DNA from: Chloroflexota bacterium
GTDB taxonomy: Bacteria; Chloroflexota; UBA6077; SHYK01
NCBI GenBank assembly: GCA_035652535.1
Contig: DASRDP010000025.1
Span: 1 to 37,397, forward strand
Reading direction: 5' to 3'
DNA: 37,397 nucleotides
Made by a program: the position numbers and the translations under genes. Positions 1-32,457 of the stretch are shown here, one piece after another (position 1 is the first letter of the stretch; every line of letters begins with the position of its first letter). A model generated the notes under the pieces. It was not told the DNA's origin and ran no database searches. It worked only from the letters and a program-made list of their open reading frames with translations.

Positions 1-666
1 AGCAAAATACAGCCGCTGAATGCTGTAGTCCTCTGTGGGGTAGGCATCGTCCACAATGGGCCTGGGAACGTCGATGACGACGCCGCCCACCATGTTGATC
101 AGCTCCTGGAAGCCGGTGAAGTTGACCAGCGCGTAGTGGGAGATGTGCAGGCCGAAGTTCTGCTCCATGGTCCGCTCCGCGAGCCCAGCGCCGCCCCCCT
201 CGAGGTGGCGCAGCTCGCCGAACGGGTACGCTTCGTTGATTCGCTGCTCGCCGAGGCCGGGGATTGGCACCCAGAGATCGCGCGGAAACGAGATCAGGGT
301 GGCGTTTTTCCGCACCGGATCGATGGAAAGGACGCTCATCGTGTCCGTTCGCGTCGGGATCCCGGCCGCGCGCTCGTCCTCGCGCTGATCGACACCCATG
401 AGCAGGATGTTGATCCGATCGGTGCCGGTCCAGTCCGGAATCCAGAAGAGTGGCGCGTCGCGGATCAGCTTCGACGGGTCGCGCACGTTCGACACGTCGA
501 ACGCGACGTGCGGGCTGGTCGAAAGCGCGGCGGCGGGCGCGCTCAGCGCGACGGTGCGCAGCGCACTCGCGAAGGCCGTGCCCCCGATCGACAGGCCGCC
601 GCCTACGTATGCGACGTACGCGACACCCAGGACCACCCAGAGGGCGCGGCTGACGATCAGACGCAT
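1..666 (-). CDS. LytR-CpsA-Psr (LCP) family protein, N-terminal part, cut by the window edge
   Basis: LCP proteins are membrane-anchored enzymes outside the cytoplasm; in Gram-positive bacteria they transfer undecaprenyl-linked glycopolymers onto peptidoglycan, and they also occur in Chloroflexota. The visible 222 residues begin with an N-terminal membrane segment (about 8-45). The LCP core follows with its usual motifs: NILLMGVDQR (86-95), the RTDTM motif (106-110), SFPRDLWVPIPG with the conserved Arg-Asp pair (129-130), INEAY (143-147) and the VNFTGF...VGGVVIDV stretch (181-200). The frame stays open to base 1, so the C-terminal part is missing. ATG 666 is the first start after the in-frame stop of the upstream gene, only 9 bp away, so the two are probably cotranscribed. 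Family assignment is firm; the polymer handled is unknown. Confidence 0.9.
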   Translation of the reverse strand, partial: MRLIVSRALWVVLGVAYVAYVGGGLSIGGTAFASALRTVALSAPAAALSTSPHVAFDVSNVRDPSKLIRDAPLFWIPDWTGTDRINILLMGVDQREDERAAGIPTRTDTMSVLSIDPVRKNATLISFPRDLWVPIPGLGEQRINEAYPFGELRHLEGGGAGLAERTMEQNFGLHISHYALVNFTGFQELINMVGGVVIDVPRPIVDDAYPTEDYSIQRLYFA

Positions 667-675
667 CCGGGAGCG

Positions 676-1260
676 CTAGGCGGGAGTGGCGGCATCGTCG
701 CGGAGAGGGTGCCTTCCGCTTGCCTTTCGAGCCTGGATCCTGTCGACGTTCCAGAGGTCCGAGTAGTTCAGCGCGCGCGGGCAATGGCCGTAGGCTTCCT
801 CCACCTCGACCACGATGCCCTGCAGAACGCTTCGGCTCAGGTCGGGATTGTAGACCTCATCCTCCACGGCGAGTCGACCCAACTCGTCACGTTCCACGAT
901 CCGCACCCGCCCATTGACCCGAACAACCTCCGAGATGCCCGGGATCAGGAAGATCAAGCCGACGTGCGGGTTGTCGTCCATGTTCAGGTATGACTGGAAC
1001 AGCTTGTTTCCCTCGATGTCGGGGACCAGCAGGTGCCGGTCGTCCAAGATTCGGACAAAGCCCGGCTTTCCGCCTTTCGGCGATGCGTCACACCGCCCAT
1101 CACTGCTGCTGGTCGCCATGACGATGAAGGGCGATTGACGGATGAAGGCTTTGATGCGCTCCGGGAGGTAGTCCGTCACCTTCATTTGGATCTTCTCGAT
1201 CGGGAATCCGAATGACCGGGTAAATCGGTTGTCGAACGCCGGATCGCGCAGCTCAGTCAT
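676..1260 (-). CDS. Pyridoxamine 5'-phosphate oxidase-like (PPOX) FMN-dependent flavoprotein
   Basis: This 194-residue split-barrel protein resembles the MSMEG_1061/DR_2398-type PPOX group, whose members bind FMN or F420 and mostly have unknown substrates. Supporting segments are the strand FIVMATSSSDGRCDASPKGG (about residues 44-63), the LLVPDIEGNKLFQS cofactor-loop region and the hydrophobic strand HVGLIFLIPG followed by VRVNGRVRIV. The frame is open upstream to 1428, but ATG 1260 is preferred because a purine-rich Shine-Dalgarno stretch (GGAGGAAGGTGG) lies just before it and the family N-terminus matches. It lies 9 bp ahead of the LCP gene on the same strand and is divergent from the amidohydrolase operon. 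Function beyond a flavin-linked redox protein cannot be read from the sequence. Confidence 0.85.
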   Translation of the reverse strand: MTELRDPAFDNRFTRSFGFPIEKIQMKVTDYLPERIKAFIRQSPFIVMATSSSDGRCDASPKGGKPGFVRILDDRHLLVPDIEGNKLFQSYLNMDDNPHVGLIFLIPGISEVVRVNGRVRIVERDELGRLAVEDEVYNPDLSRSVLQGIVVEVEEAYGHCPRALNYSDLWNVDRIQARKASGRHPLRDDAATPA

Positions 1261-1417
1261 TCCGCCACCTTCCTCCCCGCGCCGGTTCGATTCTATCAAC
1301 CCTGCCAGCATTATCGGAGCCATTTCGCCCAATCGGGACCTCTGGCATACTTGCGAGGCACCGCGGCCGCTTCGAACCGGCTGCCGCGGCCCGTAGGCCA
1401 ATGTGCGGGGGCGCGTG
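1261..1417. promoter_or_regulatory. Divergent intergenic region between the PPOX gene and the amidohydrolase operon
   Basis: These 157 bp must hold promoters for both directions. A GATAAT hexamer on the minus strand (1311-1316) and a CATACT hexamer on the plus strand (1346-1351) could serve as -10 elements. Neither has a convincing -35 partner at 17 bp, so promoter positions are tentative. Confidence 0.3.
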
Positions 1418-2590
1418 ATGCAGATCAAGCACGGACTGATTAGCTGCGATTCCCACGGTCAGCTCGATCGTGAGGCCTTCACCAGTCGGATGTCCGCCGC
1501 GCGGTGGGGCGACCGAATTCCGCAGGTGGTTGAAGTCGACAACGGACGAGGCGACCGCGTCCACCGCTGGTCCGTGAACGGGAAGATCCAGGGGCCGGGT
1601 CCCTTCGCCGGGGGAATCGTGAACTGTCCCGCGGCGATGAGCGATCCGTCCCGCCGCACACATCCGCAGCGCTGGGAAGAGGTCCCGAAGAAGGTCTACG
1701 ACCCGGTCGAACGGCTGCGTGCCCTCGACGAAGATGGCGTCGACGCGGAGGTCTTCTACCCCAACAATCCCATCGCGAGCTTTAGCTTTCCCACAGACGA
1801 CCCTGTCTTCGAGCTGGATTGCGTCCACGCGTACAACGACGCGATCTGTGAGTTCCGGCGTGTGAGCGATCGCTTCATTCCCCTGGCGCTGATCCCCTAC
1901 CGGAATTCCATTGAGACGATCGTAGCGGAGGTGACCGACGCGGTCCGGAAGGGCGCCGGGGGCGTCATCATGCTGACCGAGCCGGGGATCACCATTCCCG
2001 GCGTCCCACGGACGAACGATCCGTTCTGGGATCCCTTCTGGGCGTGCTGTCAGGACCTGGGCGTACCCATCAGCTGGCACGGATCCGGGGGCCTCATCAG
2101 CGAGCTGGCGGTTCCCCTTTGGGAAGGGTACAACCGCGCCCAGGCTCACACGGCGCTGACGGCTCGGTTGTGCGTTACGCCCGCGACGATGATCTCGAAT
2201 CTGCTGTTTTCGGGTCGTCTCGAGCGGTACCCGGGCTTGAAGTGGGTGTGCGCCGAGACGGGCATGGGCTGGCTCACGTACGTGCTCGAGAGCTGCGACC
2301 ACGAGTGGGAGCGACGACAGCTCTGGCGCGACGGGCTGGAGACGCGGCCGAGCGAGGTGTTTCGCCGCCAGATCTTCGCCGATTTCTGGTTCGAGCGGGC
2401 GGGCGTCGAGCTCCGCGATTTCATCGGCGTCGACAACATCATGTGGGAGTCCGACTACCCCCACGTCACCTCCACCTACCCGGAGTCCCGGGATTGGGTC
2501 GAGCGCGTGCTCGTCGACGTGCCGGCCGAGGAGCAGCGGAAGATGCGGTGGGAAAACGCCGCCCGCCTTTATAAGCTGGACATCGAGTAG
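1418..2590 (+). CDS. Amidohydrolase-2 family metal-dependent hydrolase/decarboxylase (tandem copy 1)
   Basis: A 390-residue TIM-barrel protein of the amidohydrolase-2 (ACMSD-like) superfamily, whose members decarboxylate or hydrolyse aromatic and ring-cleavage acids. Family marks: the N-terminal SCDSH segment (His13), YNDAICEF (139-146), SWHGSGG with metal-ligand-like His221, AETGMGW (279-285), and the C-terminal WESDYPH with Asp346 and His349. In this family that Asp is the usual metal/catalytic acid. In the N-terminal motif, where relatives often read HVxEP, this copy has HGQLD. The start is uncertain: GTG 1403 and GTG 1415 are also in frame, and 1418 is chosen because the protein then begins like its tandem neighbour (MDLRFGLISADDH). 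It heads a same-strand run reaching 10147, with an 11-bp gap to the next gene. Substrate unknown; an aromatic or carboxylated acid is inferred from context. Confidence 0.88.
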   Translation: MQIKHGLISCDSHGQLDREAFTSRMSAARWGDRIPQVVEVDNGRGDRVHRWSVNGKIQGPGPFAGGIVNCPAAMSDPSRRTHPQRWEEVPKKVYDPVERLRALDEDGVDAEVFYPNNPIASFSFPTDDPVFELDCVHAYNDAICEFRRVSDRFIPLALIPYRNSIETIVAEVTDAVRKGAGGVIMLTEPGITIPGVPRTNDPFWDPFWACCQDLGVPISWHGSGGLISELAVPLWEGYNRAQAHTALTARLCVTPATMISNLLFSGRLERYPGLKWVCAETGMGWLTYVLESCDHEWERRQLWRDGLETRPSEVFRRQIFADFWFERAGVELRDFIGVDNIMWESDYPHVTSTYPESRDWVERVLVDVPAEEQRKMRWENAARLYKLDIE

Positions 2591-2601
2591 GAGCCGGCAG
2601 C

Positions 2602-3732
2602 GTGGATCTCAGGTTCGGGCTCATCAGCGCCGATGACCACGTTCAGGAGCCGCCCGATCTGTGGACAGCGCGGCTGTCGCGCGCAATCTGGGGTGACCGC
2701 GTGCCCCGCATCGAGGCGCAGACGGACGGGTCCGAGTGCTGGGTCGTCGACGGCCGGCGGGCACCGCTCGGGGGACCTGCTGAGCTGGGCGCGGCTCTCG
2801 CTGACCGGGCAGGGAGTCCGCTCCGATGGGAGGACGTGCCCGAATCATACTTCGTGCCAAGGCGGCGCCTGGAAGCGATGGACCGGGACGGCGTCGACTG
2901 CTCCGTGCTGTATCCGACGGCCGCGGGCGTAGCCGGCGAGACGCTCACGGCGATCCGCGATCGCGACCTGCAGCTCGCCTGCATCCGCGCGTACAACGAC
3001 TGGCTCGTGGACGAGTGGGCAGCGTTCGACTCGCGGTTCATCGCCCAGTGTCTCGTGCCCCTCACGAGCGTGCCGGACGCCGTGGACGAGGTGGTCCGCG
3101 CCGCGGACAAAGGGCATCGCGGCGTTGTACTCCCCGCGATCCCGAGCTTTGAGACGGGCGTCCCTCACCTGAATGACGCTGCATGGGACCCATTCTGGGC
3201 CACGTGCGCGGAGCGCGCGCTTCCGGTCTGTTTCCACGCAGGCGCCCCCGGCCCCATCCAGATCAGCCCGGACCCGCGCCTCGCTCCGCGCCTCGCCGGC
3301 GCCTTTCGCGCCATCACGCGCCCCGCGAGTCACATCCCGGTCATGGTGAACTTCCTGATCTCTCGCATCTTGCTCCGGCACCCCGCGCTGCGCGTAGTCT
3401 TCGCCGAGAGCGCCCTCGGCTGGGTGGCCTATCTCCTCGAGTTCACCGACCACCAGTTTCGGGAGGACCGCGTTGATCGCGAGGGCTACGAGCTGAATCC
3501 GTCGGGGATGTTCCACCGGCAGTGCGCGGTCACCGGCTGGTACGATCGCGCGGCCGTCAGGACGCGCCAGCACATCGGCGTGGAGAACATTATGTGGTCG
3601 ACGAACTTTCCGCTTACCACGTCAACGTGGCCGAACACGCGGGAGTTCGTCGCGCGCGCCATGGCGGAGGTGCCGGAAGACGAGCGCCGCCGAATCCTGT
3701 GGGGGAATGCCGCCGCCATCTACCGCCTGTAG
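2602..3732 (+). CDS. Amidohydrolase-2 family protein (tandem copy 2), altered active-site motif
   Basis: This 376-residue paralogue of the preceding gene shows the same order of motifs: ISADDHVQEPPDLW (8-21, His13), RAYNDWLVDEW (129-139), CFHAG with His212, AESALGW (268-274) and a C-terminal MWSTNFPLTTSTWP segment. That last segment aligns with WESDYPHVTSTYP of copy 1, so the conserved Asp is Asn335 and the conserved His is Leu338. This suggests changed chemistry, a partner role or loss of activity. The N-terminal HVQEP motif, missing in copy 1, is intact here. The start is GTG 2602, preceded by GGAG about 9 bases upstream. The gap to copy 1 is 11 bp and to the cupin gene 22 bp, supporting one transcript. 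Family is clear; activity is not. Confidence 0.87.
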   Translation: MDLRFGLISADDHVQEPPDLWTARLSRAIWGDRVPRIEAQTDGSECWVVDGRRAPLGGPAELGAALADRAGSPLRWEDVPESYFVPRRRLEAMDRDGVDCSVLYPTAAGVAGETLTAIRDRDLQLACIRAYNDWLVDEWAAFDSRFIAQCLVPLTSVPDAVDEVVRAADKGHRGVVLPAIPSFETGVPHLNDAAWDPFWATCAERALPVCFHAGAPGPIQISPDPRLAPRLAGAFRAITRPASHIPVMVNFLISRILLRHPALRVVFAESALGWVAYLLEFTDHQFREDRVDREGYELNPSGMFHRQCAVTGWYDRAAVRTRQHIGVENIMWSTNFPLTTSTWPNTREFVARAMAEVPEDERRRILWGNAAAIYRL

Positions 3733-3754
3733 ACACTGTGAACGGGGGAAATCC

Positions 3755-4879
3755 ATGGCCGCAATCACGCAGCAATCAACCGTCGAGAAGAGCTCATGGA
3801 ATCCGCGGTCGGCGTACGAAAGCTGGATCGCCCGCCTTGGTCTGCCGATCCATCGAGGCCATCACGTCGACAACCTGGCGACCGTTGAGCTAGGGCCATG
3901 GCCCGAGCGGGGCTGCAACGCCGCTTTCCTCATGTTGAAGGGCATGGAGGACATCCACGAGGCGCGAATCGTCGAGATCCCGCCCGGTCGGACACTGACG
4001 CCGTCGCGGCTCGCTCTGGAGGAGCTGGTCTACGTCGTAAACGGGCGCGGGCTCTGCAGCGTGTGGGGAGCTGAGGGACTGCCAAAGCGCTCCTTTGAAT
4101 GGGGCGCGCACAGCATCTTCATGGTGCCGCCAAACTACACGTATCAGCTCGCCAACGCCCACGGAGCCGAGCCTGCGCGGCTGCTCATCACGAACTATCT
4201 TCCCCTCGCGCTCCAGGCGCTCCCAGACCTCGATTTCTTCCTCGATAACCCGAGGGTCGACCTCAGCATCCTGTACGGCGAGAACGACAGTCCCTATTCG
4301 AGCGCGGTCGTGACGCACCCGTTGGGCAATCGCGCAGGCCTGCGGAACCTGTGGATCGGCAATTTCTTCCCTGACATGGCGACCTGGGACAAGCTCGAGC
4401 CCTACCGCACGCGGGGCGCCGGCGGGACGACGGTGTATTTCCGGTCGAAGACCGGGAAGGGTGGCCACATGTCCGTCTTCCCGCCCCGTCGGTACAAGAT
4501 GGCGCACCGACACGGCCCCGGTCGGGTGATCGTGATTCCGTCTGGCGAGGGCTATACGATCCTGTGGCCGCCCGGCGGCGAGAAGACCATCGTGAATTGG
4601 CAAGAGGGGACGGTGTTCACGCCGCCGGAAGGCTGGTACCACCAGCACTTCAACGTCGGCGTGTCACCCGCCCGATACATCGCCTTCGGACCGCCACGCA
4701 TCCTCGCGGGGAAAGGCGATCGCATCGAGGACCTACAGATCTCGTACCCGGAGGAGGAGCCGTGGATTCGGCAGAAATTCGAGGAGGAGCTGGCGAAGCA
4801 GGGACTCACCTCCGACGTTCCACCCGAGGCCTATCGCGACCCGGACTACGCGTGGGACTATGGCGACGATGGAGACTGA
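3755..4879 (+). CDS. Double-domain cupin (gentisate-dioxygenase-like bicupin), tandem copy 1
   Basis: A 374-residue protein with two beta-barrel cupin domains (about 65-150 and 225-312), the plan of gentisate 1,2-dioxygenase-like and related bicupins. The C-terminal cupin carries a metal site: His251-x-His253 in MAHRHGPG, then GEGY, and His296/His298 in WYHQHFN. The N-terminal cupin has the fold signature (EELVYVVNGRG, 89-99) but no His at the ligand positions (LTPSRLALEE), so it is probably structural. ATG 3755 is preferred over the upstream in-frame codons, since GGGGGA lies at the right distance and the paralogue starts alike. It sits 22 bp after amidohydrolase copy 2. Aromatic ring cleavage is possible from context, but isomerase-like or unknown roles fit equally well. 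Confidence 0.85.
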   Translation: MAAITQQSTVEKSSWNPRSAYESWIARLGLPIHRGHHVDNLATVELGPWPERGCNAAFLMLKGMEDIHEARIVEIPPGRTLTPSRLALEELVYVVNGRGLCSVWGAEGLPKRSFEWGAHSIFMVPPNYTYQLANAHGAEPARLLITNYLPLALQALPDLDFFLDNPRVDLSILYGENDSPYSSAVVTHPLGNRAGLRNLWIGNFFPDMATWDKLEPYRTRGAGGTTVYFRSKTGKGGHMSVFPPRRYKMAHRHGPGRVIVIPSGEGYTILWPPGGEKTIVNWQEGTVFTPPEGWYHQHFNVGVSPARYIAFGPPRILAGKGDRIEDLQISYPEEEPWIRQKFEEELAKQGLTSDVPPEAYRDPDYAWDYGDDGD

Positions 4880-4880
4880 C

Positions 4881-4909
4881 TTGCGCGTTCCGATGGACCG
4901 GGCTATTGT
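4881..4909 (+). promoter_or_regulatory. Possible internal promoter between the two bicupin genes
   Basis: TTGCGC (4881-4886) and TATTGT (4904-4909) are separated by exactly 17 bp in the 68-bp gap. They could form a housekeeping-type promoter for the second cupin and downstream genes. The evidence is motif matching only. Confidence 0.3.
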
Positions 4910-4947
4910 CAACGTGCGTTGGGAGATCCCGAAGGAGTTGATCGTTC

Positions 4948-6078
4948 ATGGCAATTGAGACTACCGCGCCGCAGCCATACGTCACGGCCTCTGGTGGGCA
5001 GAGCCGGACGCCCTACGAACAATGGATCGCGTCCACCGGTGTGCCGATCCATCGGGGCTACTATATCGAGGACGCGCGGACCATCGAGCTGGGCCCGTGG
5101 CCCGAACGGGAATGTAACGCTGCCTTCCTCGTCCTCGCGGGACAGGAGGGCGTGAGCGAGGCGCGCATCACCGAGATCGCGCCGGGCACCACGCTGCCGC
5201 CCCTGAAGTTCGCCCTGGACGAGGTCATCTACGTGGTCGAAGGCCGCGGGCTGACGACTGTGTGGGCCGGCGAGGGAGGTCCGAAGAAGACGTTCGAGTG
5301 GCAAAAGCACAGTATGTTTCTCGTTCCCCGGGGGACCACGTATCAGATCAGCAGCACGCAGGGCAATCAGCCTGCGCGCCTGCTCCACTACAACTACCTG
5401 CCCATCGCGATGAACATCGTCCCAGACCCCGGCTTCTACTTCGCCAACACCTACATCGATCCGAAGATCTCGTCGGGCGAGGATTACTACTCGGAGGCGA
5501 AGTCCTTTGTTCCGGAGGGGTCCAGAACGGGGCGCGTGATCTGGTATGGCAACTTCTTCCCCGACATGCGGGCGTGGGACAGACTCCACACGTATGAGGA
5601 GCGCGGCGCCGGGGGGCTTCGCGTGGGCATCCAGTTCGCCAACTCCACCATGTGGAGCCACATGTCCGTATTTCCATCGCGGACGTACAAGAAGGGCCAT
5701 CGCCATGGACCGGGCGTCGTCATCATCATCCCGGGTGGCGAAGGCTACTCCATCATGTGGGAAGAGGGTAAGGAGAAAGTGGTGGTGCCCTGGCACGAGG
5801 GCAGCGTCTTCGTACCGCCGAACCGCTGGTTCCATCAGCACTTCAATCTGGGCGCGACCTATGCGCGATACCTCGCCTTCCACGCGCCCCGTGGTGTGGC
5901 GGGCCGGAGCGAGCGGGTGGAGGACCTGGCGCGGGATCAGATCGAGTACCCGGACGAGGATCCCTTCATCCGCAACAAGTTCGAAACGGAGCTGAAGGCC
6001 CGCGGCCTCTCGAGTCTGATGCCGAACGAGGCCTATCGCGATCGCGACTACAAATGGGACTACGGCGAGGGCGACTGA
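4948..6078 (+). CDS. Double-domain cupin, tandem copy 2
   Basis: A 376-residue paralogue of the preceding bicupin, colinear along its length, with shared blocks such as GVPIHRG, ELGPWPER, GNFFPDM and EAYRDRDY. The metal-binding residues lie again only in the C-terminal cupin: His251-x-His253 in GHRHGPG and His296/His298 in WFHQHFN. The N-terminal cupin (LPPLKFALDEVIYVVEGRG) lacks the His ligands. AAGGAG at 4932-4937 places the start at ATG 4948. The gap to the next gene is 29 bp. Two diverged but complete copies suggest either a heteromeric enzyme or related substrates; neither can be decided from sequence. Confidence 0.85.
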   Translation: MAIETTAPQPYVTASGGQSRTPYEQWIASTGVPIHRGYYIEDARTIELGPWPERECNAAFLVLAGQEGVSEARITEIAPGTTLPPLKFALDEVIYVVEGRGLTTVWAGEGGPKKTFEWQKHSMFLVPRGTTYQISSTQGNQPARLLHYNYLPIAMNIVPDPGFYFANTYIDPKISSGEDYYSEAKSFVPEGSRTGRVIWYGNFFPDMRAWDRLHTYEERGAGGLRVGIQFANSTMWSHMSVFPSRTYKKGHRHGPGVVIIIPGGEGYSIMWEEGKEKVVVPWHEGSVFVPPNRWFHQHFNLGATYARYLAFHAPRGVAGRSERVEDLARDQIEYPDEDPFIRNKFETELKARGLSSLMPNEAYRDRDYKWDYGEGD

Positions 6079-6107
6079 CCGCAATCGGCTGGGCTGGGCG
6101 CCGGCCA

Positions 6108-7874
6108 ATGCTCAGCCAAGGGAATACGACACGGGAGTGGCCCTTGGGTCGTCGGTTCGTGTTGCTGTGCGCTGCGGTCACCATTGCCGCCACCCTCGGC
6201 TGCGGGAGCCGACCGGCAAGGGACCCGTCGCGAGCTGACGCCACGTCCCCATCCGCGACCGGGCCGAAGCGAATCGTCGCGGCGATCATGAGCGACCCGC
6301 CCACGATCAGCGCCCACTTCATTCTCGCCGGGTCCGGGACGATTCCCGGCGGTGACGCGATGACTGGGCTGCTCGATGCCGGCCTCACGGTCACCGACGA
6401 TCATGGCGACCTCCGCCCACAGCTCGCCGAGCGCGTTCCGTCGGTTGAGAACGGGTTCTGGACCGTGCACCCCGATGGCACGATGGAGACCGTGTGGAAG
6501 ATCCGCGGCGGCGCCCAATGGCACGACGGATTGCCGCTTACGAGCGATGACATCCTCTTCACCGCCGGTCTGGCGCAAGACAGGGATCTGACCTTCTTTC
6601 ACGATCCGGCGATCGAGCCGGTCGCCGCGGTCGACGCGCTGGATGCGCAGACCGTGCGGGTGGCGTGGGCGCGCCCCTACATCCAGGCGGACCACCTTTT
6701 CGGCCTGTCGACGATCTCGCCGCGACCGCGCCATCTGCTCGAGCCGATCTTGCAGAGCGCCGAGGATAAGACGTCGGTGTTTCAGGCGCCGTACTGGACG
6801 ACCGATTTCGTCGGCGCGGGACCGTTTCGCCTGCGGGAGTGGGTGCGCGGGAGCCACCTGATTATGGAGGCGAACGACGCGTACGTTCTCGGGCGTCCAC
6901 ACCTCGATGAGATCGAAGTGCGCTTCATCCCCGATCCGAACGCGCTCGTCGCCAACGTCCTGGCCGGCACCGTCGAGCTGACCATGGGGCGAAACATCTC
7001 GCTCCAGCAGGCGATGCAGCTTCGTGACTCGTGGCGCGACGGCCGGATCGACGTGGGATTCACGGACTGGATCGCGCTCTACCCGCAGCTCCTGAATCCC
7101 AGCCCCGCGGTGCTCTCGGACGTGGATTTCCGCCGCGCGCTTCTGTACGGCCTGGATCGCGAACAGCTCGTCGAAACGCTCCAATACGGGCTCGTTCCGG
7201 TCGCGCATAGCTTCGTCAATCCCAACGAGTCCGTCTACCCAGAGATCGAGGACAGCGTCGTGAAGTATCCGTATGACCCGCGCCGCGCAACGCAGCTCAT
7301 CGAAGGACTGGGGTATGCGAAGGCTGGTGACGGGATCTACCGCGACGCTGTCGGCCAGCAGCTCTCGCTCGAGGTGCGCACGAGCGGCGGGGACGACACG
7401 CAGGAGTCCGGTGTCATCTCTGCGGCCGACGCGTACAAGCGGTTCGGAATCGCGGCGGAGCCCTATCTCATTCCGCAGGCGCAGCGCAACGACCGCGAAT
7501 ACAACGCAACCTATCCAGGCTTACGTCTGTGGCGCCTCCCCAACGATCTGGGGCGTGTTGATCGGTACGCCAGCAGCGATGCGCCGTTACCGGAGAACCA
7601 CTTCAGCGGAGCGAACCGCTCGCGGTACATCAATCCCGAGTTCGATGCGCTCGTCGATGCCTATATGACCACGATTCCGCTGGCTGAGCGAGTTGGATGG
7701 CTACGGCAGATCGTGCACCACATGACCGACCGCGTGATCATTCTCGGGCTTTGGTACAACACCGAGGCCATCGTGATCGCGAATCGCATCACGGGTGTGG
7801 CGAACAAGCGGACCGGAGACGCGGACCTGCCGTGGAACGCCGAGCAGTGGGACGTGAAAAACGTGGCCGCGTAG
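6108..7874 (+). CDS. ABC transporter substrate-binding lipoprotein, family 5 (oligopeptide/dipeptide type)
   Basis: A 588-residue solute-binding protein of the SBP family 5 (OppA/DppA-like). It starts with a lipoprotein signal peptide ending in lipobox TLGC, with Cys32 as the lipid anchor. The mature protein has the usual family-5 landmarks: TVWKIRGGAQWHDGLPLTS with the domain-1 strand, VGAGPFRLREW, a PNALVANVLAGTVEL segment, FRRALLYGLDREQL, and a C-terminal PEFDALVDAYMTTIP segment. ATG 6108 has only a weak Shine-Dalgarno; TTG 6144, with GGGAG six bases upstream, is an alternative and would keep the signal peptide. No permease or ATPase gene of this transporter class lies nearby. Its place between the bicupins and the Rieske gene suggests it captures the compound degraded by this operon. 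Confidence 0.88.
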   Translation: MLSQGNTTREWPLGRRFVLLCAAVTIAATLGCGSRPARDPSRADATSPSATGPKRIVAAIMSDPPTISAHFILAGSGTIPGGDAMTGLLDAGLTVTDDHGDLRPQLAERVPSVENGFWTVHPDGTMETVWKIRGGAQWHDGLPLTSDDILFTAGLAQDRDLTFFHDPAIEPVAAVDALDAQTVRVAWARPYIQADHLFGLSTISPRPRHLLEPILQSAEDKTSVFQAPYWTTDFVGAGPFRLREWVRGSHLIMEANDAYVLGRPHLDEIEVRFIPDPNALVANVLAGTVELTMGRNISLQQAMQLRDSWRDGRIDVGFTDWIALYPQLLNPSPAVLSDVDFRRALLYGLDREQLVETLQYGLVPVAHSFVNPNESVYPEIEDSVVKYPYDPRRATQLIEGLGYAKAGDGIYRDAVGQQLSLEVRTSGGDDTQESGVISAADAYKRFGIAAEPYLIPQAQRNDREYNATYPGLRLWRLPNDLGRVDRYASSDAPLPENHFSGANRSRYINPEFDALVDAYMTTIPLAERVGWLRQIVHHMTDRVIILGLWYNTEAIVIANRITGVANKRTGDADLPWNAEQWDVKNVAA

Positions 7875-7919
7875 GGCGGGCGTCCCTCCGAAGGCGGCGG
7901 CGAGAGAGGAGAGAAATCG

Positions 7920-9110
7920 ATGTTGACGGCTGAAGAGAACGAACTGCTGACCCGGGTCGGCCCCGGGGCGCCCGCCGGCGAGTTGTTCCGCCGCTACTGG
8001 CTCCCGATCGCCGTCGCGCAGCAGCTTTCCGACGAACGGCCGACCACGTTCGTCCGCGTGCTGGGAGAGGATCTCGTTCTCTTTCGTGACAAGCGCGGCA
8101 TGGTGGGACTCATTGCCGACCATTGCTCGCATCGCGGTGCCTCGATGCTGTACGGCCGCGTGGAGGAGCGGGGGATCGCCTGCGCCTATCACGGCTGGCT
8201 CTACGACACGAAGGGCAATTGCCTGGAAACGCCCGCGGAGCCGTCCGGCAGCATGTTTCACTTGACTGTGAAACATCGCGCCTATCCGGTCCAGAAATTC
8301 CTCGGCCTCTACTGGGCGTATCTCGGGCCGGAGCCCGCGCCGCTCATCCCCCCGTACGACATCTGGGTCCGAAAGGATGGCACCCATCGCCTCTACGTCC
8401 AGCCTCAGCTCGACTGCAACTGGCTCCAGCCGATGGAGAACTCCGTCGACCCGAGCCACTCGCGAATCCTGCACGCCGACGTGACCGCTCGCCGCCGCGG
8501 GCTCACCATCGCGAACACGACCCGGGGAAAGACCGACGAGGTCGAGTATTTCGACTTCACCGAGCTGCCCATCGGCATCATGAAGAAACGAGTCTCCCGC
8601 AACGGGCACCTGGACGAGCATCCCCTGATCTTTCCGAACATCTTGCGACACGGAAACGATACCCAGATCCGGGTTCCCATCGACGATACCCACACGTGGG
8701 TCGTCTTCGTGAATTTCGAGCCAAGCGAGGACGGCAGCATCGTAGAGGACGGGGACGAGCTGCCGGTGGAGTACCTCGGCCCGTACAAGGAGCCGGCGGC
8801 CGCGCGCTATCCATGGACGCGGTACACGATGGACGACGTTCAGCCGCAGGACCACATGGCCTGGGAGTCGCAGGGCCCAATCGCGGACCGCTCCGTGGAG
8901 CGACTGGCGACCTCGGACCGCGGAATCGTGATGCTGCGACAGATGCTCCGTCGGGAGATCGAGAAAGTCCAGCGGGGCGAGGATCCCATCGGCATCGTGA
9001 GGGATCCCAACCTCCACATGATCGACACGAACCACACGGCGCAGATGGTGGAGTGGAGTGAGGCCGCCCGCCGGCGCGGGCACGAGCCCTACAGCGCTCC
9101 GGTGCGCTGA
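7920..9110 (+). CDS. Rieske non-heme iron oxygenase, alpha subunit (phthalate-dioxygenase/demethylase-like)
   Basis: A 396-residue ring-hydroxylating or O-demethylating oxygenase. The Rieske [2Fe-2S] ligands are Cys69-x-His71 and Cys88-x2-His91 (DHCSHRGAS ... CAYHGW). The mononuclear iron site is visible in NWLQPMENSVDPSHSRILH (His180 and His185, with Asp177 as the likely electron bridge); Asp333 in TSDRGIVMLRQML is the probable third ligand, as in phthalate 4,5-dioxygenase-like enzymes. AGGAGA 7 bases upstream supports ATG 7920. Such enzymes need a reductase, and none is in the window, so it must be supplied from elsewhere. It is followed 62 bp later by a 4,5-dihydroxyphthalate-decarboxylase-like gene, which points to an aromatic carboxylate substrate. 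Confidence 0.93.
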   Translation: MLTAEENELLTRVGPGAPAGELFRRYWLPIAVAQQLSDERPTTFVRVLGEDLVLFRDKRGMVGLIADHCSHRGASMLYGRVEERGIACAYHGWLYDTKGNCLETPAEPSGSMFHLTVKHRAYPVQKFLGLYWAYLGPEPAPLIPPYDIWVRKDGTHRLYVQPQLDCNWLQPMENSVDPSHSRILHADVTARRRGLTIANTTRGKTDEVEYFDFTELPIGIMKKRVSRNGHLDEHPLIFPNILRHGNDTQIRVPIDDTHTWVVFVNFEPSEDGSIVEDGDELPVEYLGPYKEPAAARYPWTRYTMDDVQPQDHMAWESQGPIADRSVERLATSDRGIVMLRQMLRREIEKVQRGEDPIGIVRDPNLHMIDTNHTAQMVEWSEAARRRGHEPYSAPVR

Positions 9111-9172
9111 GGGGCGCCCAGGGTGCTTTGCGCGGGATTTCCAGCCGCGCGTTCCGTGGGCGGAGGGGAGCG

Positions 9173-10147
9173 ATGGGCAAGCTGGCGCTGACGCTCGCCT
9201 GCGGCGGTTACGATCGCACCCAGGCCCTCATGGACGGGACCGTCGCCATCGAAGGCGTCGACCTGAACTACCTGCGAATCGAGCCGCCAGGCGAGATCTT
9301 CTGGAGGCAGGTGCGCCACGACGAGTTCGATGTGTCGGAGCTGACCATGTCGGCGTACATCATCGGGCTTTCGCGGGGCGACGACCGGTTCGTGGCCATT
9401 CCCGTCTTCCCGCTGCGCCTCTTTCGTCATGCATTTATCTGGGTGCGAGACGACGCGGGAATCATCACACCAACTGACCTGCGGGAAAAGCGAATCGCGA
9501 TTCCCGAGTACCACATGACCGCCATGCTCTACATTCGCGGCATGCTCCAGCACGACTACGGCGTTCTGCCCGAGGAGATCGACTGGTACCGAACCCGCGT
9601 AGAGCGGGTGGAGCTCAACCTCTCACCGAAGATCCGGATCAGCGACGCCCAATCTGCCAATTGGGAGGAGATGCTCGCGCGCGGCCAGCTGGACGGGACG
9701 ATGGGGACGCGCGCGCCTCGGGCGGCGGGAAGCGACTCTCCGGGCGTGCGTCGGCTCTTTTCGGAGGTACGCGACGTCGAGGCGGACTACTATCGGCGCA
9801 CCGGAATCTTCCCCATCATGCACGTCGTCGCCATGAAGCGAGAGATCTACGAGCGCAACCGATGGGTCGCCAAGGCGCTCCTCGACGCGTTTGAGGCATC
9901 CAAGGCACACGCGTATGCCCGCATGCGCGACGTCTCCGGCATCTATTCTCTCCCATGGCTCAGCGTCGAACAGGACCGGACGCGCGCAATCTTCGGGGCG
10001 GACCCGTATCCCTACGGGCTAGAGCCGAACCGGACGACGCTCGAAGCGGCAACGCAGTACTCCTACGAGCAGGGGCTGAGCGCGCGCAAAGTCTCGGTGG
10101 AAGAGATGTTCGCGCGCGAAACCGTCGACGTGTTCGTCGAGCACTGA
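9173..10147 (+). CDS. 4,5-dihydroxyphthalate decarboxylase-like protein (periplasmic-binding-protein fold)
   Basis: A 324-residue protein that starts with the hallmark LALTLACGGYDRTQALMDG, followed by VDLNYL, EIFWRQ and DVSELTMSAYI, the pattern of the Pht5/4,5-dihydroxyphthalate decarboxylase family and its NMT1-like relatives. The family uses the fold of solute-binding proteins. No export signal is seen, which favours an enzyme in the cytoplasm. ATG 9173 is chosen over the upstream in-frame ATG 9128 because GGAGGGGAG precedes it and the family N-terminus begins here. Next to a phthalate-dioxygenase-like oxygenase, decarboxylation of an aromatic dicarboxylate or its diol is a sensible guess. 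However, many family members in uncultured bacteria have no shown activity. It ends the run that began at 1418. Confidence 0.82.
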   Translation: MGKLALTLACGGYDRTQALMDGTVAIEGVDLNYLRIEPPGEIFWRQVRHDEFDVSELTMSAYIIGLSRGDDRFVAIPVFPLRLFRHAFIWVRDDAGIITPTDLREKRIAIPEYHMTAMLYIRGMLQHDYGVLPEEIDWYRTRVERVELNLSPKIRISDAQSANWEEMLARGQLDGTMGTRAPRAAGSDSPGVRRLFSEVRDVEADYYRRTGIFPIMHVVAMKREIYERNRWVAKALLDAFEASKAHAYARMRDVSGIYSLPWLSVEQDRTRAIFGADPYPYGLEPNRTTLEAATQYSYEQGLSARKVSVEEMFARETVDVFVEH

Positions 10148-10246
10148 GCGCCCGACATTCCACATGTGCCGCGCCGGGTAGCGGGCGTTGGTACGGTAGA
10201 TACCTGTCAATATTTGTCCCCGCGTGGATTTTTCTCTCCACATGTT

Positions 10247-10350
10247 TTGACGTGACGAACGCCGCGGAGTAGGTTAGATCCGTGCGGCATGCACCTGTCT
10301 CCCTTGCTCCGCGCTCAGGGAGGCGTGCCCCTCGTGATCGCACGAGACAG
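10247..10350 (+). promoter_or_regulatory. Candidate promoter and structured 5' leader of the first beta-propeller gene
   Basis: TTGACG (10247-10252) and TAGGTT (10270-10275), 17 bp apart, form a plausible housekeeping promoter in the 223-bp gap. The leader can fold in two mutually exclusive ways. A small hairpin CTCGTG/CACGAG (10331-10336 with 10341-10346) competes with a long-range pair CTGTCTC/GAGACAG (10295-10301 with 10344-10350), just before the GGAGGAGGAG ribosome site. A regulatory role is speculative. Confidence 0.35.
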
Positions 10351-10370
10351 GATGGAGGAGGAGGAGTACC

Positions 10371-11984
10371 ATGCGTAGTGTCTTCCGGTCCCTACTGGCG
10401 GCGATCTTTGGTTTGGCGTTGATACTCCCGCAGGCCCGGAGCGCCTCGGCGGCAGGGCCTACGGTGCTGAAACCGTCCGTCAAGATCAACATGCCCGGTC
10501 TTCCGCTCAACCTGGCCAATCCCCGCGGGACCGGATTGAGCACCGACTTCATTCGGTACGACCCGGTGACCCGACTCATCTACCTGACCGACGGCGCGAA
10601 CAAGTCCGTCGACGTATTCAACAGCGTCGGTCAGCAGATGGTGGGACGGATCACCGTGCCCGACTCGCCCCACGACGCCATCACCGACGACAATCTCGGC
10701 GTGCTCATGGTCCCCTTATCCAACAAGAACGTCGCCATCATCAATCTCCAGACTCTGGCCGAGAGCGATGTGACGGTGGGCGGCGCCAGCATCGCGGATC
10801 TGGCAGGGTATGATCCCGCGACCCACATTCTTGTGGTTGGAAGCAAGGGAACGCCTCCGCAGCTCTCGTTCATCCATGTTGATCCAGCAGGAAGCACGCT
10901 CCTGGGCCAGTTCCAGACGGTGAGTCCTGAGGAGCCGCGGTTCTTCAACGGGAAGTACTACGTCTCGGCGCCGAACCAGATCCTCGTGGTCGACGCAACA
11001 ACGCGGTCGATCGTGCAAACCCTCAGCGTTCCCGGCTGCAGCGGGCACGGTTATGCGCAGGGGCCGGGGTCGGAGTTCTACCTGGGCTGCACGGCGGGCG
11101 GGGTGATCGTCAATCTGGCGACACTCTCGATCGTTGCCCACTTCGATCCGAGCGCCATCAGCGATACCGACCAGCCGACCTATGACGCGAAGAACAACCG
11201 CTACTATGCGCCCGGACATATCACGCGTAACGGCGCATCGGTGGCCGTGATGGCGGTGATCGACGCGAGCACCCATCAATTGCTCAATACCTTCGACATC
11301 GACCCGGGCTCCGAGACGCAGGCTGCCGCCGATGCGAACGGAGTCGTCTATGTCGCGACCGCGCCGGCCCTCGGCGGGGAGTGCCTCAGCATCTGCCTCT
11401 TCGGCTACGAGCCATCGGCTCCGGCCGGCAAAGACTTCACGGTTACCAGCAGCGGCGCAGGCTCCGTCTCGCTGAGCTGGACCGGCGGGCTCGGTGACTC
11501 GAGCTTGCGGATCAACCGCTTCACGGCCTCTGGTACATCCCTCGTCGCCAGCCCCGCGGTACTGTCTACCTCGGCCACCGACACGCTGCCCGCGGGGACG
11601 AACCTGGCGTGCTATCAGCTTCAAGCGCTGGGCGCCACGAGCGCGGTCATCGCGCAATCGGATATCGAGTGCGTGGTGACGAATATCGCGTCGCCGAGCC
11701 CCCTGACGGCCCCAATGCCAATCAGTATCGTGCTGCACCAGGGGTCGGTCGCGACGGTATCATGGGGAGCGGCGCCGGGGGTCACGAGCTACCTCTTCGC
11801 CGAGCTTCGATCCGGGCGCGTTCAGGTATTGACGCCCGGACAGCTCACGGCGACGGACGCCCTGTCCGGCGCGGACTGTTACGTCGTCATCGGTCGGGGT
11901 TCGACGACGAGCATGAGCGACGGCGTGTGCGCAATCGGCGGCGCCGCGACCGTCGCAACGGACTCGCGCAGCTCGAGACACTAA
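10371..11984 (+). CDS. Secreted beta-propeller protein with two C-terminal cysteine-paired domains (copy 1)
   Basis: A 537-residue exported protein of unknown role. It has a Sec-type signal peptide (about 1-28, ending SASA-AG). A YncE/NHL-like repeated region (about 35-345) follows, with blade motifs such as YDPVTRLIYLTDGANKSVDV and VVDATTRSIVQTL. Two Ig/FnIII-like beta domains follow (about 350-432 and 445-530); each has a Cys pair near its end (ACYQL...ECV; DCYVV...VCAI) that could form disulfides. No membrane anchor or sorting signal is seen at the C-terminus. GGAGGAGGAG sits just upstream of ATG 10371. It is followed by a perfect GC hairpin and a paralogue at 12203. A ligand-binding or surface scaffold function is possible, but no catalytic motif was found. 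Confidence 0.8.
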   Translation: MRSVFRSLLAAIFGLALILPQARSASAAGPTVLKPSVKINMPGLPLNLANPRGTGLSTDFIRYDPVTRLIYLTDGANKSVDVFNSVGQQMVGRITVPDSPHDAITDDNLGVLMVPLSNKNVAIINLQTLAESDVTVGGASIADLAGYDPATHILVVGSKGTPPQLSFIHVDPAGSTLLGQFQTVSPEEPRFFNGKYYVSAPNQILVVDATTRSIVQTLSVPGCSGHGYAQGPGSEFYLGCTAGGVIVNLATLSIVAHFDPSAISDTDQPTYDAKNNRYYAPGHITRNGASVAVMAVIDASTHQLLNTFDIDPGSETQAAADANGVVYVATAPALGGECLSICLFGYEPSAPAGKDFTVTSSGAGSVSLSWTGGLGDSSLRINRFTASGTSLVASPAVLSTSATDTLPAGTNLACYQLQALGATSAVIAQSDIECVVTNIASPSPLTAPMPISIVLHQGSVATVSWGAAPGVTSYLFAELRSGRVQVLTPGQLTATDALSGADCYVVIGRGSTTSMSDGVCAIGGAATVATDSRSSRH

Positions 11985-12031: not shown

Positions 12032-12202
12032 AACCGGCCGGGCTATTCAACGAAGAGGCCTGCACGACGGTTCAGGGCCTCGATGGGCACGCTCCAATTG
12101 GGTCCACGGGAGCAAGTCACGAGGTCGACAGAAGAGGAGCCGCAGACGGCATCCTGGGTCGGCAGAAGAACAGGTCGCAGCAGATCCGTGAAAGGAGCAG
12201 TC

Positions 12203-13843
12203 ATGCAATTTGCGCGAAGGGCGCTTCTCGGGGTGTTCCTCGTCGCGACGGTGTCTCTCGTCAACATCTTTCCGGCAGCAGCGGCGCCCGACGGGATCGT
12301 CAGGCTCGTCTCGGTGCCGGGCTTGTCGAACAACTGGAGCTTCGACATCACCTGGGTGGACTCTCCGTCGCACCGCGCCTTCATCGCTGATCGGGACAAC
12401 AAGGGGATTACGATCATCGACACGAACAACGCGCGGTACCTGGGCACGATCAAGGGCTTCGCAGGGCCATTGCCGAACAATACCGGCGGCCCGAATGGCG
12501 TCGTCGCGGCGCCAGATCTCAACGAAGTGTGGGCCGGCGATGGCGATAGCACGCTGAAGGTTGTGGATCTCGGAACCCAAGCGATCACCCACTCCATCCC
12601 GACCGGCGGCGTCAAGCGAGCGGACGAGCTGGCGTACGATCCCGAGCACCGCATCATTCTCGTGGCGAACGATGCCGATAACCCCCCGTTCCTCACCTTC
12701 GTGAATGCGCAAACGTTCGCCGTCCTGGGTCACATTCCGCTGCCGCAGGCCACAAATGGGGTCGAGCAGCCCCAATACGACACGGGGCTCCACAAGTTCT
12801 TCCAGGCAATCCCAGCGACGGTCGCAAATCCGGGCGGCGAGCTCGACCGAATCGACCCGCTGACGATGCAGATCGAAGCAACCTATGGGCTGCAAAACTG
12901 CGGTCCGAATGGGCTCGCGATCGGCCCCTCCGAGACGGCGCTCCTTGGCTGCAACCATTCGGCGCCCGGGACTCAGATCAACTCACAGATTATCAGCCTT
13001 ACCACGGGTACGGTGTTGCGGACCATCACCCAGACCGGCGCGCCCGACGAAGTCTGGTACAACCCGGGTGACCACCGCTACTACCTTGGCGCGACAGGGT
13101 GGACGTCGACGGGCCTTGTTGGCGGACCGAATACACCCGTGCTCGGAATCATCGATGCGCTGACGGGCACGTTTGTCGCCAATATTCCCACTGGAACAAA
13201 CCGCGCCGCCTCGGTGGCGGTTGATTCCTCTAACAACTTCGTGGTGCTTCCGCACCGCGCAGACCTGGGCCAGCCCGCAGAAGTACGGATATACGCCCCC
13301 ATGGGCGGGGAGGCCTTCTCGCTCACCGCGAAGGGGCCCACCAGCTCGGGCGAGGCGCTCCTGACCTGGTCCCCGGCCACCGTCCAGCCTCGCTACGAGC
13401 TGTCGCGGCTCACTCCGTCTGGCGTCACGACGCTCCAGATATCTGGGGGGAGTACTTCAGCCTTCGTCGACGGCATTCCGGTCGGGACACCGTGGGCCTG
13501 CTATCAGCTCGCGTCGATCGACGCGCTGGGAGCCACGGCGGCGAAGTCGGATGAGCTGTGTGAGCTGCCAGGCACAGGGTTCGGAACGCCTCCAGACCAA
13601 TTCACCATTCAGCTGAATCAATCACCGACGGCGTCTCTGTCATGGAAGTCCGTCGCGGGCGCGTCCAATATCCTCGTCGTGCCCTTGGGAACCAGCCGAC
13701 TTCAGGTCCTTCCGGGATCGGCCACGTCCACGCAAGACGCGACAGGGGGTTCGCTGACGTGCTACGGTCTTGCCGACCTGCAGGGGGCGAGCCTGGCCGG
13801 CGTGGCGCCTATTCTGTGCGCGATTCCAGGCCAGTCTCAGTAA
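12203..13843 (+). CDS. Secreted beta-propeller protein with two C-terminal cysteine-paired domains (copy 2)
   Basis: A 546-residue paralogue of the preceding gene with the same layout. It has a signal peptide (about 1-27, ending PAAAA), then a YncE/NHL-like propeller region (to about 365) with motifs such as HRAFIADRDNKGITIIDTNN and NEVWAGDGDSTLKVVDLGTQ. Two beta domains follow (about 370-455 and 465-540), each with a Cys pair (ACYQL...ELCEL; TCYGL...ILCAI). Although the frame is open far upstream, ATG 12203 is clear: AAAGGAG precedes it and the signal peptide starts here. It lies 171 bp beyond the palindrome that ends copy 1, so it may have its own promoter, though none was convincing. The function is unknown; the matched pair suggests two surface or secreted proteins with different ligands. 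Confidence 0.8.
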   Translation: MQFARRALLGVFLVATVSLVNIFPAAAAPDGIVRLVSVPGLSNNWSFDITWVDSPSHRAFIADRDNKGITIIDTNNARYLGTIKGFAGPLPNNTGGPNGVVAAPDLNEVWAGDGDSTLKVVDLGTQAITHSIPTGGVKRADELAYDPEHRIILVANDADNPPFLTFVNAQTFAVLGHIPLPQATNGVEQPQYDTGLHKFFQAIPATVANPGGELDRIDPLTMQIEATYGLQNCGPNGLAIGPSETALLGCNHSAPGTQINSQIISLTTGTVLRTITQTGAPDEVWYNPGDHRYYLGATGWTSTGLVGGPNTPVLGIIDALTGTFVANIPTGTNRAASVAVDSSNNFVVLPHRADLGQPAEVRIYAPMGGEAFSLTAKGPTSSGEALLTWSPATVQPRYELSRLTPSGVTTLQISGGSTSAFVDGIPVGTPWACYQLASIDALGATAAKSDELCELPGTGFGTPPDQFTIQLNQSPTASLSWKSVAGASNILVVPLGTSRLQVLPGSATSTQDATGGSLTCYGLADLQGASLAGVAPILCAIPGQSQ

Positions 13844-13864
13844 CGAGTCGCGTGGCTGGCAATG

Positions 13865-13910
13865 GCGGGGGGCGGATTCCGCGCGCGCAGGCAGCGCGAC
13901 CGCCCCCCGC
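13865..13910. terminator. GC-rich hairpin after the second propeller gene
   Basis: An 11-bp perfect stem (GCGGGGGGCGG at 13865-13875 with CCGCCCCCCGC at 13900-13910) encloses a 24-nt loop that can itself pair through CGCGC/GCGCG. It begins 21 bp after the stop codon. There is no T-tract, as with the other hairpins in this window. Confidence 0.6.
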
Positions 13911-14011
13911 GCGTGTGTTGCGCTCCGCGGGGGCCGCGCGCAGGCTATGCGCGTCGCGGGCGTTGGCTTGCCGTTTCGGCTGGGAAGCCCCGACCAATCA
14001 GGAGCTTACCC

Positions 14012-15694
14012 ATGGGTCATTACGTTCGGAGCATGCTCTTGGCGGTGACGACGTACGCGCTTCTGGCGTGCGCGGTCGATTCACCACGTGCGCAGACCTC
14101 ATCTCAGCCAGCCAACCCAACGGCGCCCAAGGTCCTCAACATCGTCGGCAGCGAGCCGTCGGTCATCGGGAATTTTCCCGGCGTGCGCGGAGGGACGGGC
14201 AGCCACGAGGGCATCGCGAATGAGTTTCTGACGGCGATCGACCCGCGCGGCGAGGTCATCCCGCGTCTCGCCGCGGAGACGATATCGGTCGAGACGGGCA
14301 CCTGGCGGGTCAACCCCGATGGGACGATGGATACGATTTGGTCAATCCGCCCCAACGTCAAGTGGCAGGACGGCTTCCCTTTCACTGCCGACGATCTCCT
14401 CTTCACGTACACCGCCTACAAAGATCCGTCTCTCCCTTCGTTTTACGGAGTGGCGCTGGATCTCATGACGTCGGCGGAGGTCATCGACCCGCTGACCTTC
14501 GCGGTCCACTGGTCGCAGCCGTACTTCCAGGCGAATCTCGCGCCGGGCCTGGACCCGATGCCTCGACACCTCCTGGAGGCCGCCTATCTCAACGACAGGG
14601 AAGGTCTGGACTCGAACCCCTACTTCCGACAGGACTTCGTGGGTACGGGCCCGTACCGCATCAAGGAGTGGGTGGGAGGTTCCCACATTACGTTCGAGCG
14701 CAACGACCTGTACTATCTGGGCCGCCCGCCGCTCGACACCGTCGTCCTCACCTTCATCAAGGACAAGAACACGGTTCTGGCCAATCTCCTGGCCGGAAGC
14801 CTCGACGTCGTGTACTTCAAGGACGCGCTCGACGTGGACGCAGCGCTAGAGCTCAAGGATCGCTGGGCAGGGACCAGAAATACCGTCAGCTTCGTTCCAA
14901 CGGAACGACTGATCTCCGTGGAGCCCCAGTTCCGAAGGGACGTCGCGCGGCCGCAGCTCGGGGCGACCGAGCGCGACGTGCGCGAAGCGATGCTGCGCAG
15001 CATTGACCGGCCCGCGCTCGTCGAAACCATCACGCATGGCCTCACCCCGGTCGCGGACAGCTGGATCACCCCGACGAGCAGTCTCGCGGACGTGGTGCGG
15101 AACGTTGCTCCGCATTACGACTACGATGTCGGTCGCGCGCAACAACTGCTGGCTCGGGCGGGCTGGGGAAAGGGGCCGGATGCGACCCTCGTCCACCAGA
15201 CAACGGGGGAGCGGTTCGACTTCGATCTCTGGAACCGGTTTCAGCTCGTCAAGGAACAGACCATCGTCGCCGATTACTGGAAGGCGATTGGGATCAACGT
15301 CAACATCCGTCAGTACCTGCAAAACGACCGAGACCTGCAGGCGCACATCACGGGCGGACAGATGTTGGACCAGACGATCGCGGACTTCACGGTCGCCCGA
15401 CTGCGCAGCGCCGACGTGTCCAGCGAAGCCAACGGCTACCGCGGGCGAAACGTCGCCGGGTACAGCAATCCGCGATTCGACGAGCTGCTCGATCGGCTCC
15501 ACGCCACCATCGGGGCCCAGGAGCAGGCGGAAATCCACGCAAGCCTCGTGCGAGAAGCATTCACGGATCTCGCCGAGCTGCCCCTGTACTTCCAGGTGAC
15601 GGCGCTCGTGGTGCGTGAGGGCTGGAGTGGGTCCCCACCAGGCGGTGGCGCCGGACTGTACTGGGACCTCATGAGCTGGGACAAGCGCGGCTAA
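14012..15694 (+). CDS. ABC transporter substrate-binding lipoprotein, family 5
   Basis: A 560-residue family-5 solute-binding protein. The short signal peptide ends in lipobox LLAC, with Cys20 as the anchor. Typical segments follow: TIWSIRPNVKWQDGFPFTAD, VGTGPYRIKEW, a KNTVLANLLAGSLDVV segment, REAMLRSIDRPALVETI, and the C-terminal PRFDELLDRLHATI. ATG 14012 has AGGAG upstream and directly precedes the signal peptide; the longer open frame from 13862 is not needed. It stands alone, with a hairpin upstream and converging with the sugar ABC operon downstream. It is a diverged paralogue of the binding proteins at 6108, 24167 and 30583. Ligand unknown; peptides are the classic choice, but this family also binds other organic compounds. 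Confidence 0.87.
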   Translation: MGHYVRSMLLAVTTYALLACAVDSPRAQTSSQPANPTAPKVLNIVGSEPSVIGNFPGVRGGTGSHEGIANEFLTAIDPRGEVIPRLAAETISVETGTWRVNPDGTMDTIWSIRPNVKWQDGFPFTADDLLFTYTAYKDPSLPSFYGVALDLMTSAEVIDPLTFAVHWSQPYFQANLAPGLDPMPRHLLEAAYLNDREGLDSNPYFRQDFVGTGPYRIKEWVGGSHITFERNDLYYLGRPPLDTVVLTFIKDKNTVLANLLAGSLDVVYFKDALDVDAALELKDRWAGTRNTVSFVPTERLISVEPQFRRDVARPQLGATERDVREAMLRSIDRPALVETITHGLTPVADSWITPTSSLADVVRNVAPHYDYDVGRAQQLLARAGWGKGPDATLVHQTTGERFDFDLWNRFQLVKEQTIVADYWKAIGINVNIRQYLQNDRDLQAHITGGQMLDQTIADFTVARLRSADVSSEANGYRGRNVAGYSNPRFDELLDRLHATIGAQEQAEIHASLVREAFTDLAELPLYFQVTALVVREGWSGSPPGGGAGLYWDLMSWDKRG

Positions 15695-32313: not shown

Positions 32314-32457
32314 AGGCAGGTCTCCTGCTCGTGGTGGCCATATTCCTGTCGTCGGGTAGGCGATGATGCCCTCTTCGTACGGCACGGACTCCGGGATGGA
32401 CTCCGGCAGTCCGTTCCGAACGCGGTGGGCGTCAGGAGGCCATTATATGGTGGCCCG

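Follow-up and report, generated by a model that had tools for sequence, protein, structure and literature searches.

A conserved pair of amidohydrolase-fold proteins, candidate subunits of a heteromeric oxygenase, in a catabolic operon of a Chloroflexota bacterium

The amidohydrolase family PF04909 is very large and, to our knowledge, only a handful of its members are recognized as oxygenases (AROs). The 2-aminoisobutyrate hydroxylase AibH1H2 of Rhodococcus wratislaviensis combines two unequal proteins of this fold, one with a full dinuclear ligand set and one with a reduced set, and its AibH1 subunit has so far been treated as a special auxiliary case. This report concerns contig DASRDP010000025.1 of a Chloroflexota bacterium (37,397 nucleotides, hereafter the window), which makes up the whole of contig G000:C25 in a draft genome of 4.45 Mb. 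Seven genes on its + strand, at positions 1418-10147, form a putative operon that opens with two amidohydrolase-fold proteins, AH1 and AH2. On the combined basis of sequence comparison, structure models and analogy, this pair is, on balance, probably a heteromeric dinuclear oxygenase similar to AibH1H2 that evolved separately, with AH2 as the helper, at the core of a catabolic operon.

Several properties of the known oxygenases are instrumental for the comparison. The metals of AibH2 are held by D25, H27, H211, E265, D337 and H340 (PMC7782822). The same ligand set is described for LynB7 (PMC10127204), and that of PtmU3, from the platensimycin pathway, is said to match it closely (PMC7782822). 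An acidic residue at the place of AibH2 Asp342 or PtmU3 Glu313 has been tied to dinuclear centres, and the mononuclear AibH1 is devoid of it (PMC7782822). The AibH2 variant D342A nevertheless still takes up its metals, with diminished activity, a small Rieske protein accompanies about 90% of AibH2-like genes, and no helper protein associates with PtmU3 (PMC10401708). In AibH2, the loop D337-D342 is close to the interface with AibH1 (PMC12141560).

Nearest relatives and metal ligands of AH1 and AH2

The two proteins at the head of the operon are the following.

1418..2590 (+): AH1, amidohydrolase-fold protein of PF04909, proposed catalytic subunit; ligand residues D11, H13, H221, E280, D346 and H349, with T351 at the second-sphere acidic place
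2602..3732 (+): AH2, amidohydrolase-fold protein of PF04909, proposed helper subunit; D11, H13, H212 and E269 kept, loop Asp replaced by N335 and loop His by L338

Within PF04909, AH1 and AH2 are nearest to the known AROs (AibH2, PtmU3, SfbO). Their closest solved sequences are PtmU3 and DitZ, a Rhodococcus protein (1e-29 to 1e-33), and decarboxylases follow far behind. The model of AH1 (pLDDT 79) points to the same relatives in fold, with a VIA Z of 35.8 for DitZ (3.0 A over 352 residues), 34.3 for PtmU3, 33.8 for 4dzi, 30.4 for AibH2 and 29.6 for ACMSD. The initial annotation had suggested ACMSD-type decarboxylation for the amidohydrolases, and the corresponding alternative is that they are mononuclear-metal decarboxylases or hydrolases of the ACMSD or gamma-resorcylate type acting after ring cleavage. 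They do share a Pfam family with these enzymes, AH1 has matches of about 1e-9 to ACMSD and gamma-resorcylate decarboxylase, the Z value for ACMSD is near that for AibH2, and no Rieske ferredoxin was found near the pairs. PtmU3 and DitZ are, however, better matches by some 20 orders of magnitude; Glu280 of AH1 sits where both decarboxylases have a barrel His (alignments to 8yt2 and 3s4t), and AH1 keeps the six AibH2-type ligands. A decarboxylase or hydrolase function is considered improbable, and the earlier assignment is not supported. The proximity of PtmU3 and DitZ, together with Glu280 in place of the decarboxylase His, led to the proposal that the two proteins form an oxygenase, with AH1 as catalytic subunit and AH2 as helper.

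The ligand pattern distinguishes the two proteins clearly. In AH1 the complete series D, H, H, E, D, H is present, as in PtmU3 and DitZ; it is found in 26 of 30 AH1-type rows, the other four being devoid of the N-terminus, and the H-E-D-H part is present in 30/30. In AH2 the loop equivalent to the AibH2 D337/H340 loop reads T-N-F-P-L. Among the 26 unique AH2 copies that reach this loop, the Asp position is occupied by N (24), Q (1) or E (1), and the His position by L, Q, M or R in every one. AH2 keeps the four remaining ligands, two short of the six-ligand set, and it is not classed as an ARO catalyst. The loss is confined to this branch in the comparison: E-D-H is complete in 94/94 other relatives, including the unpaired L147-L149. 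The AibH2 counterpart of the altered loop is found close to the interface with AibH1. The parallel with AibH1H2 has its limits, since AibH1 retains Asp328 and His331 and AH2 has both positions replaced. AH1 and AH2 also derive from a duplication of their own, with 40% mutual identity and 17% identity to AibH2 in the structure alignment. Two actinobacterial tandem pairs of PtmU3-like genes (L157, 9989-12357, and L164, 2224-4724) offer a contrast to AH1-AH2, as both copies carry six ligands.

Several observations weigh against an oxygenase function of the pair. PtmU3 and DitZ have Glu or Asp two residues past the last His; AH1 has Thr351 at this second-sphere place, which is T, A, S or V across 30/30 AH1-type rows. 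As AibH1 lacks the acidic residue too, AH1 could hold a single metal. The D342A variant makes a missing acidic residue compatible with two metals, and its diminished activity weakens the claim that AH1 is active. A neighbouring small Rieske protein is a usual ARO trait and a companion of AibH2, even if PtmU3 is not reported to need one; a small Rieske ferredoxin gene was found beside 0/27 AH1-AH2 pairs in a motif search of flanks of up to 6 kb, several of them short. The operon itself likewise revealed no electron-transfer gene. These points feed a second alternative, in which AH1 is mononuclear like AibH1 and the pair is non-oxidative, acting for instance in CoA or lactone hydration or hydrolysis, with AH2 as a substrate-binding partner. 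The missing acidic residue (PMC7782822) and the lack of a dedicated electron donor among the genes found agree with it; AibH2 D342A shows this residue to be dispensable for two metals (PMC10401708), and all six direct ligands are kept in AH1. This alternative is given little credence, and the dinuclear oxygenase is preferred. Because the acidic residue is missing, AH1 is read as ARO-like by inference and not as a proven member.

Occurrence and common descent of the pair

AH1 and AH2 were used as queries against 16 genomes of the order, which revealed twelve tandem pairs, always with AH1 first: four in the genome of the window, four in G027 (a genome of the same family), three in G025 and one in G016. 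When GTDB contigs were scanned with the AH2 alignment and the best 80 of 581 loci retained, further pairs emerged in metagenome-assembled genomes (MAGs) labelled Betaproteobacteria, Deltaproteobacteria, Binatia and Chloroflexi, so that AH1-AH2 pairs occur in MAGs of four phyla. With AH2 as query, an AH2 gene deprived of AH1 would be detected, and an AH1 gene deprived of AH2 would be invisible. AH2-type sequences, defined by at least 44% identity, amount to 32 rows and 27 unique places, after exclusion from the unique counts of L128, L134, L135, L141 and L142, which repeat known places; L144 and L146 are near-identical sequences from two MAGs. In 25 of these 27 places, the same-strand gene directly upstream of AH2 is of the AH1 type. 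In the 26th (L145), the upstream gene is AH1-like (38% identity) and stands beside AH1 in the tree, and in the 27th (L136) AH2 starts 311 bases from the contig end. The association is therefore observed in 26/26 assessable places. A separate search of 400 genomes of the phylum gave matches at 1e-60 in 11 and provided more distant relatives.

In a tree of 78 rows, AH1 and AH2 form sister clades with 100% support each, and the unpaired relatives L147-L149, with their full ligand sets, branch outside AH1+AH2. The distance matrices of AH1 and AH2 across 23 paired loci are strongly correlated (Mantel r 0.845; 0 of 5000 permutations reach this value, the highest being 0.36), and the nearest neighbour is common to both matrices in 18/23 loci. 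The simplest reading is a single duplication followed by joint inheritance of the two genes. The mean column identity is 66% for AH2 and 57% for AH1; being so well conserved, AH2 is not a decaying copy. Among the neighbours of the AH pairs (56 and 65 proteins; 121 of 127 neighbour proteins were compared with Pfam), solute-binding proteins and cupins are abundant, and HpcH/HpaI aldolases, FAA hydrolases and Rieske oxygenases also occur. The pairs thus probably share a theme, the catabolism of cyclic compounds, though no one substrate. No earlier description of the AH1-AH2 pair was found in the limited literature collection searched.

The other genes of the operon and the genome around them

Five genes follow the pair.

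3755..4879 (+): CU1, weak bicupin match, Cupin_2/Cupin_1 near cut-offs
4948..6078 (+): CU2, weak bicupin match, Cupin_2/Cupin_1 near cut-offs
6111..7874 (+): SBP, extracellular solute-binding protein of family 5 (SBP_bac_5)
7920..9110 (+): RIE, Rieske and LigXa_C domains; alpha subunit of a Rieske oxygenase, phthalate 4,5-dioxygenase / LigXa kind
9173..10147 (+): DHPD-like, protein related to 4,5-dihydroxyphthalate decarboxylase and matching PDB 9jp7

The initial annotation had described seven genes of these families on one strand with gaps of 11-68 bp, including two duplicated enzyme pairs. The open reading frames and the Pfam, NCBIfam and PDB sequence matches used for family assignment bear out each of these statements: the intergenic gaps are 11, 22, 68, 32, 45 and 62 bp, quoted for the starts listed (earlier in-frame starts are possible for CU1, SBP and DHPD-like), and the duplications are real, with 38% identity between AH1 and AH2 and 54% between CU1 and CU2. 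A single transcript is suggested by the gene spacing; a scan of 600-10700 revealed no sigma-70-like promoter, against an average of 1.4 in shuffled sequence. A divergent PPOX-type flavoprotein gene (676-1320, - strand; score slightly under the TIGR04025 cut-off) adjoins AH1. Two long neighbouring proteins that have no Pfam match and share 25% identity (10371-11984 and 12200-13843) are encoded directly past the operon. The contig carries four SBP_bac_5 genes in its 37 kb (6111-7874, 13862-15694, 24167-25915 and 30583-32385).

The bicupins were compared with the gentisate and salicylate 1,2-dioxygenases, with which CU2 shares the bicupin fold. The CU2 model (pLDDT 87.6) obtains its best VIA Z with these enzymes (21.2 for gentisate dioxygenase 3bu7 and 20.7 for salicylate dioxygenase), by a small margin, as oxalate decarboxylase (19.4) and seed globulins score only about 2 Z lower; Foldseek alone places vicilins and oxalate decarboxylase on top. 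In gentisate 1,2-dioxygenase, a three-His iron site is located in the N-terminal cupin. CU2 differs from these dioxygenases in this respect: its complete His set (H251, H253, H296 and H298, plus H238) is confined to the C-terminal cupin, and the expected N-terminal site is missing. Indeed, these five His are invariant in 29/29 bicupins, whose N-terminal cupin contains no invariant His. Bicupin relatives on rhizobial plasmids (32-34% identity) have transporter and dehydrogenase surroundings in the one annotated record.

RIE has intact motifs, C-x-H...C-x2-H at residue 69 and D-x2-H-x4-H at 177, which it shares with the phthalate 4,5-dioxygenase alpha subunit (PDB 7fjl, 7fhr). In that enzyme phthalate is anchored by Ser182, Arg207 and Arg244 (PMC10511449). 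S181 and R202 of RIE align with the first two, and D232 aligns with Arg244 in a poorly aligned stretch. The two systems also differ by the absence of a reductase gene from the operon; neither reductase nor dihydrodiol dehydrogenase families were found among the seven genes. DHPD-like matches 9jp7, a 4,5-dihydroxyphthalate decarboxylase, at 3.5e-68 over residues 3-322 of 326. An oxidative catabolic gene set whose individual families are known from aromatic degradation is supported, and the aromatic-acid pathway put forward in the initial annotation is plausible. Phthalate itself is a doubtful substrate, because two of the three anchors align and the reductase and dihydrodiol dehydrogenase families are missing from the seven genes. 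Vitamin B2 catabolism (PMC12746152) was also considered and found not relevant.

The genome of the window is crowded with the same families. It contains 75 Amidohydro_2, 132 Rieske and 18 DHPD-like matches, 41 matches to CU2 (about 38 of them apparently complete or sizeable bicupin genes or fragments of such genes) and at least 133 SBP_bac_5 matches, a lower bound since 133 of 199 candidates were scored. The SAR202 genomes offer a published parallel, as Chloroflexota with many ring-hydroxylating dioxygenases, mostly annotated as phthalate 4,5-dioxygenase; the maximum there is 62 per genome (PMC6946804) compared with 132 Rieske matches here. The words amidohydrolase and cupin are absent from the main text of that publication. 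The genome holds 31 PF00528 permease domains, all kinds together, which implies, given the number of SBP_bac_5 matches, that most binding proteins are deprived of a permease pair of their own; this includes the SBP of the window, whose operon carries no permease gene. The 132 Rieske matches stand beside 13 Fer2 matches; four of the latter, judged from their sequences, resemble xanthine-dehydrogenase-type small subunits and not phthalate-dioxygenase-type reductases. This genome appears to be that of an extreme catabolic specialist.

The five families cluster, with 172/387 neighbouring gaps of 3.5 kb or less against about 26% expected if evenly spread, and their longest runs comprise 9, 7, 7, 7, 6 and 6 members. 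With families so abundant, such a run is not unusual as such. Label shuffling was applied to 75/75 AH, 37/41 bicupin, 124/132 Rieske, 18/18 DHPD and 134 SBP rows, the latter being the 133 above plus the SBP of the window; the eight weakest Rieske rows and four bicupin rows (three that were weak, and one for the second half of a split gene) were omitted. Given their positions, the family labels are mixed almost at random. The sole pair preference is AH beside AH (16 seen vs 8.6 expected, p 0.0145), and SBP-SBP pairs are depleted (18 vs 27.5 expected). With such mixing, the seven-gene set represents a single draw from a shuffled pool. Outside the AH1-AH2 pair, a fixed pathway finds no support in the label shuffling, a point against the scheme proposed below.

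The whole set was not repeated in 20 stretches around bicupin paralogues or in 11 around further AH pairs, and its status as a conserved operon was rejected on this ground. The nearest parallel, in contig G027:C122 (L117), has the order AH1-AH2-SBP-cupin-cupin, with cupins of a more distant kind (31-38%). Co-conservation, the lack of which had been named beforehand as refutation, therefore holds for the AH1-AH2 pair and fails for the seven-gene combination, which is not supported as one conserved pathway. Taken further, these data could mean that the seven genes are neighbours by chance in a family-crowded genome and serve unrelated substrates. The shuffles, in which AH-AH is the only preferred pair, and the lack of repetition in the fetched neighbourhoods argue for it; the arrangement of seven genes on one strand at gaps of 11-68 bp and the partial parallel in G027 argue against it, and it is considered rather unlikely. 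As a pathway, the operon is ordinary for this genome, and the AH1-AH2 pair is its notable part.

Proposed function and meaning of the pair

In the proposed scheme, the operon would serve the uptake and breakdown of a cyclic compound that bears a carboxyl group and is probably aromatic. The conserved core, AH1-AH2, would be a heteromeric oxygenase on the amidohydrolase fold. AH1 would activate O2 at a two-metal site, Fe2 or Mn/Fe, and hydroxylate the substrate; AH2, its loop Asp and His lost and four ligands kept, would shape the complex, in a role like that of AibH1 towards AibH2. The other genes would have joined this core through shuffling. SBP may capture the substrate, RIE may carry out a hydroxylation or demethylation, DHPD-like a decarboxylation, and CU1 and CU2 a ring cleavage from the C-terminal cupin site.

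A broader and more tentative proposal is that AH1-AH2 might constitute a separately evolved, obligately two-part class of oxygenases, in which the helper AH2, having lost its own second metal site, completes or gates the active site of its sister. Such a class would need no dedicated Rieske ferredoxin, and its two genes would have been transferred together among at least four phyla. If the oxygenase function is true, a second pair of separate origin would mean that helper subunits evolve repeatedly in the amidohydrolase fold, and the consistent loss of the same loop ligands would provide a sequence rule for finding them. Many 'amidohydrolase' annotations in aromatic operons may then conceal oxygenases.

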